NCBI GenBank assembly: GCA_024763035.1
Contig: JANTGG010000007.1
Location: 1-50,777, forward strand
Direction: 5' to 3'
DNA from: Desulfocapsa sp.
Lineage (GTDB): Bacteria > Desulfobacterota > Desulfobulbia > Desulfobulbales > Desulfocapsaceae
DNA: 50,777 nucleotides
Each line of letters begins with the position of its first letter. The stretch's first letter is position 1. This document shows, in pieces, positions 40,128-49,526 of the stretch. The notes under the pieces were generated by a model. It saw only the letters and a list, made by a program, of their open reading frames with translations, had not been told where the DNA came from and made no database searches. A program made the translations under genes and the position numbers.

Positions 40128-42335
40128 ATGGATATCAATCAGCAGCTCGACAAGTTACTCCGGGCAGAACATTATGACCCGTTCCAGGTGCTCGGTGTCC
40201 ACTTCTCCGAGGACAACCCGGACATGGCAACCATTCGCTGTTTTCAGCCCAGTGCCGAATCGGTGGACCTGCTTATTGATAAACAGCTTTTCCCCATGCA
40301 GAAAATCAGAGATGAAGGGATCTTTGAATGCAGTTTTAACAGGCAGAAAGTTTCCGATAAGCAGCTCGACCCCTACAGTTATCAGTACAAGATCACCTTT
40401 TACGACGGGGTGATACAGACCATAAATGACCCCTACCGTTTCCCTCCGGTACTGGGGGAAGTGGATCAGTTTCTCTTTAATTTCGGCACCAACTACGAAC
40501 TCTACAAACACATGGGAGCTCAGCCGGGAATGTACTCTCAGATCACGGGAACAATCTTTCGTGTCTGGGCCCCTTCAGCGACTCGTGTTTCTGTCCTTGG
40601 CAACTTCAACAACTGGGACGGAAGAGTCCATGCCATGCGCAGCCTTGGAGCATCCGGGATATGGGAAATCTTCATGCCGGGAATCGGTGAAAATGAGCTG
40701 TATAAATTCGAGATCCGAACCCAGCAGGGAGAGATTCTGGAAAAATCAGACCCCTTTCAGTTCTGGGGTGAAATCCGGCCGAAAACAGCTTCCACCGTCC
40801 GTTATCTGGATCATTACCAGTGGCAGGATGAAGACTGGCAAAAAAAGAAACAGACCTTCAACCCCTATGACAGGGCAATGTCCATTTACGAGGTACACCC
40901 TGGATCTTGGAGACGGGATCCGTCACAGCCTGAGCGTTTTCTCACCTTCAGAGAGCTTGCAGATTCTCTTATTCCCTATGTGAAAAAACTGGGATTTACC
41001 CATATAGAGCTGATGCCGGTTATGGAGCACCCTCTCGATGAATCCTGGGGATATCAGGTGACCGGTCCCTTCAGTCTGACCAGCCGCTACGGGACTCCGG
41101 ATGATTTCATGTTTTTTGTGGATCGCTGTCATCAGGAGGACATCGGTGTTATTCTTGATTGGGTTCCCGGACACTTTCCCAAGGACACCTACAGCCTTGC
41201 CCGCTTTGACGGGACGGCCCTCTTTGAACATGAGGACCCAAGACAGGGCGACCATCCGGAATGGGGTACCTTTATCTTTAACTACGGCAGGAAGGAGGTG
41301 AGTAACTTCCTGATTGCCAATGCCCTTTTCTGGCTGGACATCTACCATATTGACGGTTTGCGTGTGGATGCCGTGGCCTCCATGCTCTACCTGGACTATT
41401 CCAGAAATGATGGTGAGTGGATTCCCAACACGTACGGTGGCAGGGAGAATCTTGAAGCCATTGAATTTATCAGACACCTCAACTCCATCATCTACGACCT
41501 CCATGCCGGCACCCTGATGATCGCCGAAGAATCCACCAGTTTCTACGGGGTCTCAAAACCCGCAGATGCCGGGGGACTTGGCTTTGGCTTCAAATGGAAT
41601 ATGGGCTGGATGAACGACACGCTCAAATACTTTGAGACAGACCCGATCTATCGAAAGTACCATCATAACAACCTCACATTTTCAATCATGTACGCATTTT
41701 CTGAGAATTTTATACTTCCCCTCTCCCACGACGAAGTGGTACATGGAAAGAAATCACTGATAGAGAAAATGCCGGGGGATCAGTGGCAGAAATTTGCCAA
41801 CCTCCGCCTGCTGCTGCTCACCATGTGGATGCATCCCGGAAAAAAACTGCTGTTTATGGGTGGTGAATTCGGGCAGTGGAACGAGTGGAACTGCAAACAG
41901 AGTCTGGACTTTCATCTGCTGAAAGAGTCGGGAATGCACCTTGACATGCTCCATTTTGTTGAAGATCTCAACAGACTCTACAAAGAGAATGCCAGCCTCT
42001 GGGAACAGGATTTCACTTACCAGGGTTTCCAGTGGATGGACCTTGAGGATCGTGAGAATTCCATCATTTCCTACGCCCGCTTTGCCAAAGATCGCGAGGA
42101 TCACCTTGTCTGCCTCTTAAACTTCACTCCGCAGACATTTTTCAGTTACAAGATGGGCCTCCCCGCCAAAGGCTGCTATGAGCAGATATTCTGCTCCGAC
42201 CACTCACGATTCGGAGGCAGCAACGCAAGCCAAAAGACCATTTACAAGGCAATCGACGAACCGTATGCTCAGGCTCCCTTCCACACCCAGGTCGTTGTTC
42301 CGCCGCTTGCCGGAATTATCCTGAAACCATGCTGA
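40128..42335 (+). CDS. glgB: 1,4-alpha-glucan branching enzyme GlgB
   Basis: GlgB introduces alpha-1,6 branches into glycogen. The 735 residues include the N1 domain (AEHYDPFQVLGVH), the carbohydrate-binding GNFNNWDGRVHAMR segment, and the GH13 barrel with the nucleophile Asp in DGLRVDAVASMLYLDYSR, the acid Glu in LMIAEESTS and the third acid in LSHDEVVHGK. A long N-terminal form like that of E. coli is present, so length is normal. GAGG precedes the ATG. No glgA, glgC or glgP is in the window; galU at 20671 is the only other sugar-nucleotide gene. Confidence 0.97.
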   Translation: MDINQQLDKLLRAEHYDPFQVLGVHFSEDNPDMATIRCFQPSAESVDLLIDKQLFPMQKIRDEGIFECSFNRQKVSDKQLDPYSYQYKITFYDGVIQTINDPYRFPPVLGEVDQFLFNFGTNYELYKHMGAQPGMYSQITGTIFRVWAPSATRVSVLGNFNNWDGRVHAMRSLGASGIWEIFMPGIGENELYKFEIRTQQGEILEKSDPFQFWGEIRPKTASTVRYLDHYQWQDEDWQKKKQTFNPYDRAMSIYEVHPGSWRRDPSQPERFLTFRELADSLIPYVKKLGFTHIELMPVMEHPLDESWGYQVTGPFSLTSRYGTPDDFMFFVDRCHQEDIGVILDWVPGHFPKDTYSLARFDGTALFEHEDPRQGDHPEWGTFIFNYGRKEVSNFLIANALFWLDIYHIDGLRVDAVASMLYLDYSRNDGEWIPNTYGGRENLEAIEFIRHLNSIIYDLHAGTLMIAEESTSFYGVSKPADAGGLGFGFKWNMGWMNDTLKYFETDPIYRKYHHNNLTFSIMYAFSENFILPLSHDEVVHGKKSLIEKMPGDQWQKFANLRLLLLTMWMHPGKKLLFMGGEFGQWNEWNCKQSLDFHLLKESGMHLDMLHFVEDLNRLYKENASLWEQDFTYQGFQWMDLEDRENSIISYARFAKDREDHLVCLLNFTPQTFFSYKMGLPAKGCYEQIFCSDHSRFGGSNASQKTIYKAIDEPYAQAPFHTQVVVPPLAGIILKPC

Positions 42336-42468
42336 TCGAGTTTTGCACCTATTTAACACCGGTGATGAACGGTAAGCCGGCATAAATACCTTATTAGAAA
42401 TTTTCTTGCGAAAAAAACAGGTAAGCGAAGACTCCGAGAAAATTATCTGTAAGGTACTAAAAACTGCT

Positions 42469-42484
42469 GCGGGTGAATGCCCGC
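42469..42484. other. Short GC hairpin before the 57-residue gene
   Basis: GCGGG (42469-42473) and CCCGC (42480-42484) enclose a 6-base loop. It lies 17 bases before the ribosome site of the small gene and has no T-run, so it is more likely a leader hairpin than a glgB terminator. Confidence 0.3.
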
Positions 42485-42512
42485 TGACGCTCCCAATTAC
42501 GAGGAAACAACC

Positions 42513-42686
42513 ATGACTCAACAACCAACAAAGCGTACGGGCGATAAAAAAAAACAGGCCCTCACTGAACTTTCCGAACTGACCCGCAAACATCCCGAAA
42601 AAAGCAGAAAAGAGCTGCTGCAGGAAGTTGAAATCCGCTTTGACCTCACCCCGAAGGAATGTGAATTTATTAATAATAATTTTTGA
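42513..42686 (+). CDS. Small hydrophilic protein of unknown function (57 residues)
   Basis: The ATG at 42513 has GAGG eight bases upstream, which is why the shorter form is chosen over a frame open from 42477. The product is highly charged and helical (TGDKKKQALTELSELTRK, KSRKELLQEVEIRF) and ends in FINNNF. The Lys/Glu heptad-like spacing suggests a small helical or nucleic-acid-contacting protein. No family is recognised. It lies 177 bases after glgB and is followed by a long gap, so it may be a single-gene transcript. The clear ribosome site and protein-like composition support it as real. Confidence 0.65.
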   Translation: MTQQPTKRTGDKKKQALTELSELTRKHPEKSRKELLQEVEIRFDLTPKECEFINNNF

Positions 42687-43146
42687 CAGATGTGCTAATC
42701 AGCTGAGCACTGTCCCCTCGAGATGCATACTCAAAAAAAGCTGTCAGACTGTATGTGAACAGAGAGCATAACTGTGCTGTTTCCGGGAATATTACCCGCA
42801 GCAATCCAGAAGAGCTCCGGCAAAGACAGCTGACAGACATAAGCCTTCAGCATTAAAGACAATAACAGTATCAGCATACCACTGGGCTCATTTTTTCCTT
42901 GCAAGACATCATATACTGCTTACTTTTTTCCTGATAATGACTGACGTTCAAACGCTATTTGATACAGGAAATGGCAGCAGGTTGCTGAATAAGGAAATCG
43001 CCCGCAGTGGCGGATTCCCACGCTGCAATATTCTATTGACCTGAGGCTCTGTGATAAGCAGGTATCAGTTCCTGCCGGCAGTAACGACCGAAGTGGGTAT
43101 TTTTCCCTTTCCTGTTCCTTATCTCCACCAATGAAGAGGATTTCTT
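42687..43146. other. 460-base intergenic region, no gene recognised
   Basis: Short inverted repeats are visible (GTGCT 42692-42696 with AGCAC 42706-42710; AGCTGTCAG near 42740 with GACAGCT near 42825). TTGACC near 43035 could belong to a promoter of the DUF4126 gene, but no well spaced -10 follows. A sigma54-like TGGCA/TTGCT at 42972-42986 has the wrong spacing. A small RNA cannot be excluded. Confidence 0.4.
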
Positions 43147-43809
43147 ATGGATGCATATCAACAGTTGACAGCAACACTTGCCCTGACCATGGGAACGGCA
43201 TGGGCAGCAGGTATTAATCTCTATGCAACAATTGCAGTTCTTGGATTTCTCGGCATTACCGGCAATGTGGTTTTGCCGGAACAGCTGCAGCTCCTGCAGG
43301 ATCCGATGGTGATTGGGGCGGCGGCGCTTATGTATATGGTGGAGTTTTTTGCAGATAAAACACCGGGTGTGGATACAGGATGGGATGCAATCCATTCCTT
43401 TATCAGAATTCCTGCAGGAGTCCTGCTCGCGGCAGGCGCGGTGGGTGAGGTAAACCCAAGTATGGTTATTGTGGCAGGAATCCTTGGCGGCGGGATAGCG
43501 GCAACAAGCCACACTATCAAAGCAGGAACCAGAGTGCTTGTCAATACCTCCCCGGAGCCGTTAAGTAACTGGACCGCCTCTGTCCTGGAAGATATTGCTG
43601 TAATCGGCGGTATCTGGACAGCCCTGCACTACCCCCTTGCTTTCCTCATTTTTTTCATCGCCTTTGTGATGACTGCAATCTGGGCAATTCCAAAAATATG
43701 GACGGGAATCAAGGTTGTCTTCCAAAAACTCAGCTCTTTCTTTGGGGGAAATACACCACCTGCACCCTCCGGAGATTCAGCCGCTATTCCTAAAAAACTT
43801 TCCCTGTAA
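43147..43809 (+). CDS. DUF4126 family membrane protein
   Basis: The 220-residue protein has five to six hydrophobic segments: about 5-35, 55-70, 95-125, 150-170 and 170-195. It carries the DUF4126 features GINLYATIAVLGFLG, EFFADKTPGVDTGWDAIHSFIRIPAG and HTIKAGTRVLVNTSPEP. The C-terminus is a short Pro-rich cytoplasmic tail. The function of the family is not known. AGAGGA precedes the ATG. It stands alone between a long gap and a convergent histidine kinase gene. Confidence 0.88.
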   Translation: MDAYQQLTATLALTMGTAWAAGINLYATIAVLGFLGITGNVVLPEQLQLLQDPMVIGAAALMYMVEFFADKTPGVDTGWDAIHSFIRIPAGVLLAAGAVGEVNPSMVIVAGILGGGIAATSHTIKAGTRVLVNTSPEPLSNWTASVLEDIAVIGGIWTALHYPLAFLIFFIAFVMTAIWAIPKIWTGIKVVFQKLSSFFGGNTPPAPSGDSAAIPKKLSL

Positions 43810-43822
43810 GGATGGATATCAG

Positions 43823-43890
43823 CAGGGGAAAGAACACTACCGGATATCGGAGAAATTGACTTTTCTTCAATATCCGACCGCATTCCCCTG
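43823..43890. terminator. Long two-tier hairpin between convergent genes
   Basis: Outer arms CAGGGGAA (43823-43830) and TTCCCCTG (43883-43890) enclose inner arms CGGATAT (43841-43847) and ATATCCG (43870-43876), with further AGAAA/TTTCT pairing inside. It lies between the DUF4126 gene and the kinase gene, where a bidirectional terminator would be expected. T-runs are inside the loop rather than after the stem, so simple intrinsic termination is doubtful. Confidence 0.5.
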
Positions 43891-43896
43891 GAGTTC

Positions 43897-45378
43897 TCAA
43901 CAGGGAATCAGGACCTGAACAGAACATCCTTTCCCTTCTCCGGAATGAATCCGGATACTCCCCCCATGTTCTTCGATAATTTTTGCCGACATGGCAAGAC
44001 CAAGCCCTGTCCCTTCGGGTTTGGTGGTAAAATATGGATCGAGCACCCTGTCGATATTTTCCGTTCCGATTCCACATCCGGTATCAGTCACCATAACCTC
44101 CACAAAACTCTCTTTTTTTCCCGCCGTAACCCTTACCTTTCCACCATGCTCCATGGCCTGAACGGCATTCAGCAGCAGATTCAAAAAGACCTGAGTCAGC
44201 TTATCCGCATCCGCCTGCACCATCGGCAAAGGTGAGTCCGGGAACTGTTCGGCGACTACAACACCTGAAGCTTCCGCATCAATACGTATCAGGGAAACAG
44301 ACTTGTGAAGCAGTTCCTGCAGATCCACCCCCTCTTTCTGCAACTGCTGAGGTCTGGCATAGTCGAGCAATTCACTGATGCTTCTGTTTAAACGCTCCAC
44401 TTCCTGCACCAGAATATCAGCAGTCTCAATATCATGAGCATTTCCGGAAACACGAGTCCGGAGGAGAAGAGCAAGACCTTTTATGGAACTTAAGGGGTTG
44501 CGCAGTTCATGGGCAACTCCCGCTGCCATCTTCCCAAGGGCGGCAAGCCGTTCACTCCGACGCAGCTCTTCCTCTACCTTTCGCAGGCGGGACTGTGACC
44601 CTTTAAGCCCTTCAAGGGTCAGAATGGAAATCCAGCCGCCCACACCGACCAGCAGCAGAACAATGGAGAGAAAAACAATCTCCAGCTTCTTCCTGCCAAG
44701 GGCCCTGTTAAAATGGGCAAGATCAAGTTCCACCAGAATAATCTTTTCCTGACGGTTCAACTCCTCCAGTTGAAAGACAAGATCAATATCCAGACCATGG
44801 AACAGCGGCTGCCTCTGCCGCGATTGTGCTGGATGCCTGCTGCTTGAGAGACGGGGAACAACTGAATTCAGAAACTGTCTGCCAAAGGGCGGAAACTTGG
44901 CAGCCACCTGAAAGACCTGTCTACCGCTGTCTTTACCGATACGATATCGGAATGTTCCACTTTCCGGAAGATCATCTTTTAATGTCTGAAGAAACGCTTT
45001 TGTCGAAGGAGAAACCTTTTGCCGACAGCGGTCAGGCTCGGAACAGGAGTAAATGAATCCATCGGGATCGACAATGGCAAGATAGTGGAGACCTGGATGT
45101 CCCGAGGCATGTTTAAGGATCTGCTGCACATACTCCGGCCACAGATTGAGAATATCCTGACCATTACGCAGACCGCTGAACAAAGAACTTCTGGCACTGG
45201 AGCTGACAAAACGGATAAGGGTTGTTCCCTTCTCCACAAGTATCTGGGTCATCAGCACCTTGTCACGCCGGTAGTTGTTCACTGCAAAGACGCCAATAAT
45301 AAGGGCAAGCAGACCGCAGGCGGCGGCAAGAACCCATGGTGAAACATGGGCAAGACGTTGTCGTTTCAGGAATCGCAT
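43897..45378 (-). CDS. Membrane sensor histidine kinase
   Basis: The 493 residues have TM1 (about 15-36) and TM2 (about 233-255) around a roughly 195-residue periplasmic sensor with LAIVDPDGFIYSCSEPDRC, a Cache/PAS-like segment. The kinase core follows: phosphoacceptor His290 in GVAHELRNPLSSIKG, NAVQAMEHGGKV, TDTGCGIG and DPYFTTKPEGTGLGLAM. It resembles ZraS/AtoS-type kinases that pair with sigma54-activating regulators, but no regulator gene is in the window. Its ATG lies inside the last codons of the upstream unknown gene (13-base overlap), so the two are translationally coupled and probably act together. Confidence 0.92.
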   Translation of the reverse strand: MRFLKRQRLAHVSPWVLAAACGLLALIIGVFAVNNYRRDKVLMTQILVEKGTTLIRFVSSSARSSLFSGLRNGQDILNLWPEYVQQILKHASGHPGLHYLAIVDPDGFIYSCSEPDRCRQKVSPSTKAFLQTLKDDLPESGTFRYRIGKDSGRQVFQVAAKFPPFGRQFLNSVVPRLSSSRHPAQSRQRQPLFHGLDIDLVFQLEELNRQEKIILVELDLAHFNRALGRKKLEIVFLSIVLLLVGVGGWISILTLEGLKGSQSRLRKVEEELRRSERLAALGKMAAGVAHELRNPLSSIKGLALLLRTRVSGNAHDIETADILVQEVERLNRSISELLDYARPQQLQKEGVDLQELLHKSVSLIRIDAEASGVVVAEQFPDSPLPMVQADADKLTQVFLNLLLNAVQAMEHGGKVRVTAGKKESFVEVMVTDTGCGIGTENIDRVLDPYFTTKPEGTGLGLAMSAKIIEEHGGSIRIHSGEGKGCSVQVLIPC

Positions 45379-47072
45379 GTAACAGGAGCGGAAGGATTTA
45401 TAATCTTTTCAAGAAAAACTCTGGTAATCATATAGGTGGGAACAACGCCGTGAATTCCCATGGATCCTGAAGCGAGTGTCTCTCCAAAATGAAGAGGATT
45501 ATCCGATGCGTAATAGGCGTACCTGGTTCGTACATCTTTGGAAACATGCCCTCGAATGATTGCAGCACTGATTGCCCGCTGATAATGTCCTCCCTCCATT
45601 TCAAGCCCCACAGCCCTCCAGTTTGAATCGTGGAATCTGGCGAGGACATCACGATTCTGCAGGGAGGTGCCAAGCACTGTAACCATTGGTCCCACATGGA
45701 TGGGGTACCCCTTGTCAAAATCAGTCACATCAATATCGTTTTCCACAATATAGTTATTGGGGGTTCCTTCCATAACATGGGCAGTGGCAAGCATGATATC
45801 ACCCTTGCTGCCACCAAGTGTTCCAGCCTTTCCCATGATGGAGATGGATACCGTATCCAGCACTTCCTTCTGGCTGACATCTCCACCGGGATCAAGCAGT
45901 TCATCAAGGATATCAAAGGCCTGAGCGCCAAAAGCATAATCAATGACAATAATCAGCGGCTGCTGTTTTTTTACATACTCAAAGTCACACTGAATACCCG
46001 GATGAATATTCTCCGGGATATTTTTTGCCGTATCAATGACCATCACATCTATGTTTGATTCGGATGTGTCTGCAAGGGAGGTAAAGCCGAACTCCGCTGC
46101 AAATTCATTTACCCCTTCCTCATGCTCACGAATCTCTGTTATCATTTCATAGAGGTCTTCCGGAACCTCCCGATCCTTGGAACGAAGGTATCCGGCACCA
46201 TAAAAAATATTTTTCATGGAGTGCATATTGGCGCTGACAATATGAATCTTCCGCCGCTCCAGATTGTTGTGCAAAAGATGACGTTTCACATTATCTGCCC
46301 AGATGGAGGCATACTGGTGCAGCCCGATCATCTCCTGCAGGGAAGGAGTAAAATACACGGTAAGAAAATCGGTTGTGGATTTCACTTCTTCAATTATCCG
46401 TTTCCCCATGGAATGAATAATGGAAAACAGCCCGCTGTTACTCTGCTCCGCACGGCTCCGGTGCCCCTCCATAGAGTTATAACTTTCCCTGGTTTCCCGA
46501 TAGGTTCTGCCGAGGATGATGGAAAGATTCCAGATAGCCTGATCGAGTTCAGCACCCTCAAGACTTCTCTGCTCAACGGCCCTTTCCAGATCATGCCATT
46601 CGGTGCAGGTACCGCCTTCCTTGTTGCAGATCTGCCGGTGAATTTTCTGAGCCTCGATATTTAGAAATGTGAGGTGGGTAAGAATATCATACACCTCTGT
46701 CATGCCACGGGAGATGACAAAACAGATCTCTTTTTCAGAGACGATATAGGAGAGCCTTCTACGTTTAAGGGGGATAACTTTTTTAAAAGAGGTGTCTCTG
46801 AAATCTTCACCTGCGGTAAGGATAATGCGGGTGCATTTTTCGATACCACGAGGCATCCTGTCCATCACATATTCGAGCCCATGCAATTCGACCATGCGAT
46901 GATCACTCATGGTTCCATAAATCTCGGGGTCAAACGTCATCAGAGACTCTGAGAGTTTATCCCCTGTTTTTCCAGACGGGCGGTAATAGCCCCTCAGCAC
47001 AAGAGCATCCGCGATGGTTTTAAATGTCCGGATCGCCAGACGGGCACGCTGAGAACCTGAAAGTTCTTTCAT
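45366..47072 (-). CDS. Large conserved protein of unknown function (possibly DUF6909) with nucleoside-phosphorylase-like C-terminus
   Basis: The 568-residue soluble protein lacks signal and membrane segments. The N-terminal 300 residues are helical and charged (RARLAIRTFKTIADALVLRGYY; EYVMDRMPRGIEKCTRII). The C-terminal half contains VMVIDTAKNIPENIHPG, VTVLGTSLQNRDVLARF and GLEMEGGHYQRAISAA (EMEG at 491-494). The last recalls the active-site EMEG/DMEG of nucleoside phosphorylases and AMP nucleosidase, with a preceding GTS and an Asp. I suspect DUF6909 for the family but cannot test it. GGAG precedes the ATG. It overlaps the following histidine kinase gene by 13 bases and lies downstream of the cold-shock gene terminator. 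Function unassigned. Confidence 0.8.
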   Translation of the reverse strand: MKELSGSQRARLAIRTFKTIADALVLRGYYRPSGKTGDKLSESLMTFDPEIYGTMSDHRMVELHGLEYVMDRMPRGIEKCTRIILTAGEDFRDTSFKKVIPLKRRRLSYIVSEKEICFVISRGMTEVYDILTHLTFLNIEAQKIHRQICNKEGGTCTEWHDLERAVEQRSLEGAELDQAIWNLSIILGRTYRETRESYNSMEGHRSRAEQSNSGLFSIIHSMGKRIIEEVKSTTDFLTVYFTPSLQEMIGLHQYASIWADNVKRHLLHNNLERRKIHIVSANMHSMKNIFYGAGYLRSKDREVPEDLYEMITEIREHEEGVNEFAAEFGFTSLADTSESNIDVMVIDTAKNIPENIHPGIQCDFEYVKKQQPLIIVIDYAFGAQAFDILDELLDPGGDVSQKEVLDTVSISIMGKAGTLGGSKGDIMLATAHVMEGTPNNYIVENDIDVTDFDKGYPIHVGPMVTVLGTSLQNRDVLARFHDSNWRAVGLEMEGGHYQRAISAAIIRGHVSKDVRTRYAYYASDNPLHFGETLASGSMGIHGVVPTYMITRVFLEKIINPSAPVTCDS

Positions 47073-47104
47073 AAGTAACTCCGGTAAAGACGGAAGTACA
47101 TTGC

Positions 47105-47142
47105 AAAAAAAAAGGGACGAACCACAAAATGGCTCGCCCCTT
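47105..47142 (-). terminator. Intrinsic terminator of the cold-shock gene
   Basis: The arms 47112-47124 and 47130-47142 pair over 13 positions. The two A-C mismatches seen on the plus strand become G-U wobbles on the minus-strand RNA, and a run of nine A (47105-47113) gives the terminal U tract on that strand. It is the clearest terminator in the window. Confidence 0.9.
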
Positions 47143-47167
47143 AAAACTTACAAAAAAACGACTTACA

Positions 47168-47368
47168 TCATATTTTCTGCACGTTAGCTGCTGCAGGACC
47201 TTTAGGACCTTCGGTGATTTCAAATTCTACGCGATCACCTTCGTTCAAAGTTTTAAAACCATCAGATACAATCGCTGAATAGTGAACGAAAACATCTTTT
47301 CCACCATCCTGCTCTAAAAATCCAAAACCCTTTGCCTCATTAAACCACTTAACTGTTCCTTCTAACAT
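47168..47368 (-). CDS. CspA-family cold-shock protein
   Basis: The 66-residue single-stranded nucleic acid binding protein has both RNP motifs, [10 protein letters not shown] and DVFVHYSAI, and the usual [11 protein letters not shown] start and PAAANVQ end. Such proteins act as RNA chaperones. GAGGAG is placed about 13 bases before the ATG, a little far. A 300-base upstream gap may contain a long 5' leader as in cspA genes of enterobacteria. A strong terminator follows. Confidence 0.95.
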
Positions 47369-47685
47369 AATAAACTTTGAACTCCTCAGTTCTGATCAAC
47401 TACGTGATCATGCTTTTTTCTGTTGTACAGCCGCAAAACTCCTGCGAACAATGCAGGAAAGAGCAGTTAAAAAACGCAAACAGGCTCCCTTTCTGACACC
47501 ATACAATTTATACGTATTTCTATACTACCCAAAGGTATTTCAAAATACCAGAGAAAAAGAACAATTAGCGATCTTTTTTTATTCTCACACGATTACAAAC
47601 CCTTAGAGATGTATCATCCTTCGGACACAGTCCCTTCATCACGGGAAAAGAAAGAATTTTTACACCGTGATCAGATTTCCCATGC
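47369..47685. other. 317-base leader and promoter region of the cold-shock gene
   Basis: No gene is seen. A perfect inverted repeat GGTATTT-CA-AAATACC lies at 47534-47549 and may be an operator. ATCACGG/CCGTGAT (about 47627 and 47663) follows the gpmI stop and may fold in its mRNA. Several AT-rich -10-like boxes exist but none has a well spaced -35. Confidence 0.45.
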
Positions 47686-49314
47686 TTATTTTTGCAACTG
47701 CAGCAGGGAAGGCTCATACTCTGCAGGTGCTTCATAACCGAGAAGATTCATAAGAGTAGCAGCAATATTTGCTAATCCGGGCTCTTTTCCAGGGCACAGG
47801 GAGAAAGTATTTACCCCGCTGAAATCCTTAATAATGCAAGGCACAGGATTTTTGGTGTGGGCTACCATTGGTGTACGTACCCCATCCTTTTCATTCCACA
47901 TACAGTCTGCATTCCCGTGGTCTGCGGTAACAAGTGCCACTCCTTTTGCCTTCTGTAAAACAGGCAGGATTCGTCTCAGCATCAAATCAACAGTCTCAAC
48001 AGCGATACGAACCGAGACAGGTACTCCGGTGTGACCAACCATATCACCATTTGCAAAGTTCAGCCGGATAAACTTAAACTTGCCTCCTGCAATCGCTTCA
48101 ATCACATGATCCGTAATCTCCGCGGCCTTCATCCATGGACGCAGGTCAAATGTTATTTTATCAGAAGCGATTTCCACATACTTCTCCAGCTCCTCATTAA
48201 TGTATCCGGACTTATTCCCATTCCAGAAGTAGGTCACATGACCAAATTTCTGTGTTTCCGAAATGGCATAGGAGGTGACACCGGCAGCACACAGATAATC
48301 ACTTAGAGTATTTTCGATACACGGAGGCTCAACCAGATAATGCGCAGGAATATCAGCATCACCGTCGTACTGCATCATGCCGCAGTAAAAAACGTCGGGA
48401 TACCGGACTCGTTCAAAGGCGGTAAACTCCCTTTCATCAAACGCCCTGGAGAGTTCAATGGCGCGGTCTCCCCGAAAGTTAAAGAGGATAACACTGTCTC
48501 CGTCTTCTATCGTACCGACCGGTTTTCCACCGCGTTCCACAACAAAACTGTCCATGTACTGATCGGTCATATCCGGATCTTCGTCATAGTACTGCCGTAT
48601 CGCCTCACAGGCGGAGGAAAACCTTCTGCCTTCACCAAGAACGTGTGCCTGCCAGCCCTTTTCCACAATACTCCAGTCGGCCTCGTACCTGTCCATGGTC
48701 ACATTCATGCGACCACCACCGGAAGCAATACAGTAATCCCTGCCCTCCGTTGACATGGCAGCAAGTTTTTCTTCAAGGGGCCGAAAAAATGACAACGCGC
48801 TTTTAGGGGCAACATCGCGACCATCGAGCAATCCATGCACCCGAACGCGCTGAACATTCTCCTTAACACACTGATCCAGCATCATATTCAGCTGCTCCAC
48901 ATGACTGTGCACATTCCCGTCAGAGACCATCCCGATAAAATGGAGGGTGGAGCCTTTTACAGCACGTTCACAGGCTGTCCGCCAGGCATGCCCACGAAAG
49001 ATATCTCCGGAATGGAGGGCAATATTCACAAGTTTTGCCCCCTGGGCAAAGATGCGGCCTGCCCCCAGAGCATTATGCCCGACCTCAGAATTTCCCATAT
49101 CGCCGTCGGAAGGTAAACCAACAGCTGTGCCATGGGCTTTCAGGGTGGTAAACAGCTCACCCTGCATGAGTTCATCAAGGACAGGAGTGTATGCCTGGGC
49201 AACACCGTCGGTTTCATCACCGGGACCAATCCCGACACCATCCATAATAACGGTAACAAGGGGACCGGGGAAGCTGTTATAACCGGGTAGAGCACGTAGA
49301 GTGAGATCTGACAT
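47686..49314 (-). CDS. gpmI: 2,3-bisphosphoglycerate-independent phosphoglycerate mutase
   Basis: The enzyme interconverts 3- and 2-phosphoglycerate using two Mn ions. From the ATG at 49314, which has AGGAAG six bases upstream, the protein has 542 residues. Metal and active-site motifs are TVIMDGVGIG, GDMGNSEVGH with the phospho-acceptor Ser76, VHGLLDGRDVAPKSAL, GGGRMNVTMDRY-like segment, NFANGDMVGHTG and VTADHGNADCMW. An earlier in-frame start at 49359 adds 15 residues without support. It appears to be a single-gene unit, divergent from the prepilin gene. Confidence 0.96.
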   Translation of the reverse strand: MSDLTLRALPGYNSFPGPLVTVIMDGVGIGPGDETDGVAQAYTPVLDELMQGELFTTLKAHGTAVGLPSDGDMGNSEVGHNALGAGRIFAQGAKLVNIALHSGDIFRGHAWRTACERAVKGSTLHFIGMVSDGNVHSHVEQLNMMLDQCVKENVQRVRVHGLLDGRDVAPKSALSFFRPLEEKLAAMSTEGRDYCIASGGGRMNVTMDRYEADWSIVEKGWQAHVLGEGRRFSSACEAIRQYYDEDPDMTDQYMDSFVVERGGKPVGTIEDGDSVILFNFRGDRAIELSRAFDEREFTAFERVRYPDVFYCGMMQYDGDADIPAHYLVEPPCIENTLSDYLCAAGVTSYAISETQKFGHVTYFWNGNKSGYINEELEKYVEIASDKITFDLRPWMKAAEITDHVIEAIAGGKFKFIRLNFANGDMVGHTGVPVSVRIAVETVDLMLRRILPVLQKAKGVALVTADHGNADCMWNEKDGVRTPMVAHTKNPVPCIIKDFSGVNTFSLCPGKEPGLANIAATLMNLLGYEAPAEYEPSLLQLQK

Positions 49315-49526
49315 AATTCTTCCTTTCGTATAAACAATAGAACTGTGAATTGCCGACATATTTTAAACTCGCTGTTGCAACTCACTACCACAATCGCTCG
49401 CAAGGGGCGAACTCCTGCATCCAATCCAGATTACCTGTGCTTTGATGGTAATCCCGTAATTTTATAAGCGGTATATACTGAAAATGCCAGGAATTTGCTA
49501 CAGAGTTGGGCTGAAAACGGAGACGG

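Follow-up and report, generated by a model that had tools for sequence, protein, structure and literature searches.

A DUF6909 protein of Desulfocapsa with a predicted nucleoside phosphorylase-type fold as a candidate nucleotide-cleaving enzyme

In the 50,777-nucleotide stretch of Desulfocapsa sp. DNA analysed here (the window), the 3' end of the gene for a 568-residue protein overlaps the beginning of a gene for a histidine kinase, which raises the question of what this protein does and how it relates to the kinase. The gene occupies positions 45366 to 47072 on the minus strand as a single open frame of 568 codons plus a stop, and the corresponding plus-strand frame is interrupted by stops; the frame proposed by the first-pass annotation, which gave no strand, is thus real. 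Both C-terminal motifs quoted there, GLEMEGGHYQRA (residues 489-500) and VTVLGTSLQNRD (residues 464-475), were found in the product, referred to below as P0001. The description 'unknown protein' did not hold, because P0001 belongs to Pfam DUF6909 (PF21850; 217.4 bits against a gathering cut-off of 27), though the function of this family is unknown and the Pfam model itself gives none. No NCBIfam model fitted P0001 (one chance-level line, E = 0.14), a literature text search returned no paper naming DUF6909 or PF21850, and the annotation of a Persicobacter (Bacteroidota) copy reads 'hypothetical protein'.

The structure of P0001 was predicted using AlphaFold2 on an alignment of 46 sequences (mean pLDDT 86.9, pTM 0.83), and the model was compared with solved structures using VIA-align and Foldseek. 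The C-terminal domain, residues 256-562 (45387 to 46307, minus strand), aligned in VIA-align with purine and uridine phosphorylases, MTA phosphorylase, MTA nucleosidase and futalosine hydrolase at Z-scores of 18.5-19.7 and rmsd values of 2.5-3.2 over 196-231 residues (best chain: Z 19.7, rmsd 2.7, 212 residues), with identities of 10-16%. All 50 matches listed were phosphorylases or nucleosidases of the same fold (NP-I), and the highest Z-scores belonged to purine and uridine phosphorylases. Structure prediction against the PNP/MTAN fold, the check proposed in the first-pass annotation, therefore matched the phosphorylase superfamily fold, and the suggestion of a nucleoside-phosphorylase-like C-terminal half stands at the superfamily level in the predicted model, except that the domain begins near residue 256 and not at residue 300. 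In Foldseek, the first three ranks were taken by chains of AMP nucleosidase (Amn; 2guw_B, 7.0e-9; 2guw_C, 1.3e-8; 1t8s_B, 6.8e-8), which superpose poorly on the P0001 model (rmsd 21, 22 and 6, respectively). No Amn chain appeared among the 50 VIA-align matches listed, which is not evidence against a likeness to Amn.

Profile comparison pointed in the same direction. The C-terminal profile scored 35.7 (E = 2.9e-4) against eight phosphorylase-type proteins, three of them Amn-type, and 34.9 (E = 9.6e-4) against 11 AMP nucleosidases; none of the 60 column shuffles scored as high in either comparison (null maxima 23.1 and 25.7, respectively). A PNP_UDP_1 protein (91.7 bits) from another genome of the phylum matched the DUF6909 profile at 3.6e-4, below the DUF6909 cut-off. 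P0001 itself generated no match to PF01048 (PNP_UDP_1) or PF10423 (AMNp_N) at E up to 1, and single-sequence and profile searches of PDB sequences returned nothing meaningful. BLASTP of P0001 against E. coli Amn gave E = 0.93, useless alone, and full-length A1, compared with five assorted proteins of phosphorylase type, gave E = 5.6e-4 but a probability of only 30%. P0001 is accordingly placed in the nucleoside phosphorylase superfamily by its predicted fold, and not in Pfam PNP_UDP_1; the fold alone does not prove enzymatic activity.

Residues 1-255 (46308 to 47072, minus strand) form an alpha/beta domain with no clear solved relative. When this domain was modelled alone (pLDDT 89.2), the best matches in PDB reached E = 0.29 in Foldseek and Z 3.4 in VIA-align, values which do not show a new fold. 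Eight of the 12 VIA-align matches listed were uridine phosphorylases at Z-scores of only 2.0-3.4, and no Amn chain was among the matches listed. The N-terminal profile was matched or exceeded by 50 of 60 shuffles in comparison with the phosphorylase set and by 53 of 60 in comparison with Amn. An internal duplication, considered by comparing the N-terminal and C-terminal profiles, was unsupported, as 45 of 60 shuffles scored as high.

Conservation was examined in 99 sequences: P0001 plus 98 more, 95 of them distinct (four pairs are near-identical); identity to P0001 is 43% or higher in 95 and 18-19% in four. Eleven positions were invariant in all 99: N282, H284, S285, D378, Y379, K415, E491, M492, E493, S523 and D524. 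The search that yielded 80 of the loci used six patterns, EMEGGHYQ among them, which biases the selection toward this motif, and reading frames for the alignment were chosen by these motifs without loss of any locus; the 18 sequences found outside the pattern-based set, by profile or tblastn, also kept EME. The expectation that EMEG would be conserved in homologues was borne out for EME (99/99), while position 494 is Gly in 95 sequences and Ala in the four distant ones. The EME and Ser-Asp motifs, being identical throughout the aligned sequences, are not chance resemblances.

In phosphorylases, the Ser of the GSAG/GSCG loop contacts phosphate. K415 of P0001 (45828 to 45830, minus strand) occupies the Ser position of the GSAG loop in the profile alignment with MTA nucleosidase. 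According to an excerpt of PMC9584410, N205, W383, M404-E405 and D428 of Amn hold the base and sugar, R381 and K436 respond to phosphate, and phosphate is stabilised by H188 and Y189 from the adjoining chain. In our alignments with E. coli AMP nucleosidase, M492-E493 (within E491-M492-E493, 45594 to 45602, minus strand) paired with M404-E405, the ribose site, and D524 (S523-D524, 45501 to 45506, minus strand) paired with D428, the Asp on the base side. The loop N282-M-H284-S285 (46218 to 46229, minus strand) directly follows the domain's first strand, and N205 seems to be placed likewise in Amn, so that N282 may be the counterpart of N205 by order rather than by superposition. One alignment paired W383 with R474 and R381 with Q472, a second gave both other partners, and the register of R381 varies between alignments; position 474 is Arg in 85 of the 99 sequences, Lys in seven, Trp in the four distant ones and another residue in three. 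The phosphate contacts K436, H188 and Y189 fall outside the aligned part. The phosphate and stacking contacts of Amn thus appear not to be kept, or could not be placed, in P0001. As Met-Glu and the Asp are kept and K415 stands in for Ser, the part handling ribose and base is retained, and the part handling phosphate or the attacking nucleophile looks changed.

Among characterized enzymes, AMP nucleosidase (EC 3.2.2.4; PDB 2guw, 1t8s, 7uwq) resembles P0001 most in Foldseek rank, in combining an N-terminal domain with a phosphorylase-fold core, and in the alignment of the Met-Glu and SDxPL Asp motifs, but differs in its AMNp_N domain (PF10423), and its phosphate and stacking contacts, as described above, differ or could not be placed in P0001. 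MTA/SAH nucleosidase, futalosine hydrolase, hexameric PNP and uridine phosphorylase share the fold of residues 256-562 and align in profile, yet they carry the GSAG Ser where P0001 has Lys415 and show only 10-16% identity; as the chains listed for MTA/SAH nucleosidase, futalosine hydrolase, PNP and uridine phosphorylase span 222-300 residues, they lack an N-terminal domain of the P0001 type.

The gene directly downstream (45378 to 43897, minus strand) encodes a 493-residue histidine kinase with HisKA and HATPase domains, which resembles ZraS (8.2e-102) yet remains under the curated NCBIfam cut-off; by its likeness to ZraS, it would be expected to sit in the membrane. Its start at 45378 and the end of the DUF6909 stop at 45366 confirm the 13-base overlap (45366 to 45378, minus strand) reported earlier; 16 of 58 loci with a listed overlap show the same length. 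No response regulator was recognised beside the kinase among the few neighbours scanned. In many relatives the kinase match is split by an insert, which is a PAS domain in L003, the only one scanned; the match is unbroken in the window copy (43897-45378), which is without this domain, and in L002 and L051, indicating loss or gain of the PAS domain within the lineage.

A kinase directly follows DUF6909 in 59 of 80 loci (58 by filter, and L079 by its ORF). Two further loci, L054 and L081, are cut by the contig end after DUF6909, and the remaining 19 contain at least 1.3 kb of downstream sequence with no such kinase directly after DUF6909. Going by record titles, most of these 19 belong to Desulfobacterales-type or unplaced Deltaproteobacteria, two to Spirochaetia and one to SAR324; L040 and L044, which have the kinase, are also labelled Desulfobacterales. 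None of eight copies found by profile elsewhere in the phylum is followed by a same-strand kinase, and an opposite-strand histidine kinase gene adjoins DUF6909 in two of the eight (upstream in L130, downstream in L136). The kinase neighbour is therefore a lineage habit, and a P0001-type protein does not depend on the kinase. Within the window's lineage, the gene arrangement suggests that DUF6909 and the kinase are probably co-transcribed and translationally coupled, so that enzyme and sensor would probably be produced jointly; that P0001 and the kinase are linked directly, physically or by signalling, is only a guess.

The region at 40128-49359 comprises genes for an iPGM phosphoglycerate mutase, a cold-shock protein, DUF6909, the kinase, a DUF4126 protein and glgB, which occur together in many of the nearest loci. 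The cold-shock-domain gene (47168-47368, minus strand) lies upstream of DUF6909, and a strong terminator hairpin (47142-47112, z -7.0) precedes the start of DUF6909 by only about 40 bases, so that a separate promoter would have little space. A regulatory role of the hairpin for DUF6909 was considered and rejected: it looks like the cold-shock gene's own terminator, and in the 12 relatives compared it does not keep a fixed distance from the start of DUF6909; the gap between the two genes ranges from 100 to 454 bases in these relatives. Loci of the Desulfopila/Desulforhopalus type have hisG and a gene for a ribosome-binding GTPase upstream instead (clusters c5 and c6, 20 loci each), with families scanned in L052 only (e.g. 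L052:4212-5770). A gene of the uracil-DNA-glycosylase superfamily follows DUF6909 at L060:7790-8509 and L063:7768-8481. In one other genus, DUF6909 was present in four of eight sampled genomes, all four with a permease gene immediately upstream. The permease of L082 is of the xanthine/uracil-permease type (PF00860, 6e-30) and has no purine-specific name in NCBIfam, where its only match, to DauA, is weak and partial; the other three permeases share 78-89% identity with that of L082. One genome carries an inosine/guanosine phosphorylase gene about 3 kb from DUF6909. These permease and phosphorylase neighbours fit a role in purine metabolism, but they are few.

DUF6909 was detected in 82 of the 93 genomes of the window's own family (53 of the 54 of good quality), in none of 11 genomes of the same order outside that family, and over the cut-off in 12 of 297 genomes sampled across the phylum, the window's own included. 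It also occurs in records named Spirochaetia and SAR324 and in Bacteroidota, and close relatives are recorded as Desulfocapsa. No relative was found in viral contigs, where none of 54 pattern matches was confirmed. The window's own genome encodes the DUF6909 protein once, alongside three ordinary phosphorylase-type genes, namely an inosine/guanosine phosphorylase, a futalosine hydrolase and one passing no NCBIfam cut-off; the DUF6909 protein is therefore a fourth, diverged member of the fold. The best partial match of L113:1363-2079, a phosphorylase-superfamily protein of this genome below all NCBIfam cut-offs, was AMP nucleosidase (3.6e-14). The Amn N-terminal domain (PF10423) was absent from this genome, as it was from all 297 phylum genomes and all 93 family genomes, a search that short Amn-like proteins lacking the domain could escape. 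Owing to this general absence, an anti-correlation between DUF6909 and Amn was uninformative.

With the predicted fold and the core active-site residues of base-cleaving enzymes, DUF6909 is probably an unrecognised nucleotide-cleaving enzyme, and our best guess for P0001 is a hydrolytic purine nucleotide or nucleoside glycosidase. We consider it reasonably probable that P0001, with its two domains, is an enzyme of the nucleoside phosphorylase superfamily and hydrolyses a purine nucleoside or nucleotide at the N-glycosidic bond. Cleavage would proceed as in AMP nucleosidase, where D524 of P0001 would assist departure of the base and E493 would keep the ribose in place; the N-terminal domain may supply regulation or extra substrate contacts, as in the pairing of N-terminal domain and core in Amn, and in the window's lineage the enzyme would be made together with the histidine kinase sensor. 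The same fold could instead have been kept for ligand binding, P0001 being a non-catalytic sensor of nucleotides or purines that signals to the neighbouring kinase. Phosphate-site residues that look unlike those of known enzymes and the kinase directly downstream in 59 of 80 loci speak for such a role, and the opposite-strand kinases in L130 and L136, where no same-strand kinase follows DUF6909, leave room for it; we nevertheless regard it as unlikely, given that all 99 sequences keep Met-Glu and the Asp and that 19 loci with room for the kinase have none directly after DUF6909. A true phosphorolytic enzyme releasing ribose-1-phosphate would agree with the top Z-scores being those of purine and uridine phosphorylases, but the replacement of the GSAG/GSCG loop Ser by an invariant Lys and the presence of a clear inosine/guanosine phosphorylase in the genome make it somewhat less likely still.

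A further alternative draws on Detocs. The Detocs effector carries a response-regulator receiver domain; in P0001, no Response_reg match was found at E up to 1. An excerpt of PMC11249213 describes Detocs as two-component-like systems with phosphorylase-domain effectors that cleave ATP, so that a phosphorylase-type domain in a two-component-like setting, as in P0001, has a precedent there; with the kinase neighbour also confined to part of the DUF6909 range, the first-pass claim of a 'new combination' could not be maintained. An anti-phage, ATP-cleaving effector paired with the kinase would account for the phosphorylase-type domain and histidine kinase lying side by side. We rate it as highly improbable, because PADLOC (library of 2023) returned no match for four proteins, P0001 and the kinase included, because the search for a receiver domain gave no match, and because DUF6909, unlike Detocs, is near-universal in its own family, a housekeeping pattern (82/93) though patchy in the phylum (12/297). 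By these tests, namely PADLOC, receiver domain and family-wide presence, the DUF6909-kinase pair is not Detocs, and a defence origin was set aside for want of a PADLOC match. A more speculative and rather doubtful proposal is that DUF6909 represents a new nucleotide-cleaving branch acting on a substrate of its own, perhaps a regulatory nucleotide, in which the N-terminal half is a degenerate phosphorylase-fold sensor and the protein forms a unit with the kinase in the window's lineage. The idea of a degenerate copy derives from the eight low-scoring uridine phosphorylases among the 12 N-terminal matches listed, and the profile comparison does not support it.

If the reading of P0001 as a nucleotide-cleaving enzyme is correct, DUF6909 would drain or sense the pool of purine nucleotides in a way so far unrecognised, in a phylum where the search for the Amn N-terminal domain gave 0 of 297 genomes. 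The proposal provides a first testable function for DUF6909, a near-constant gene of one bacterial family.
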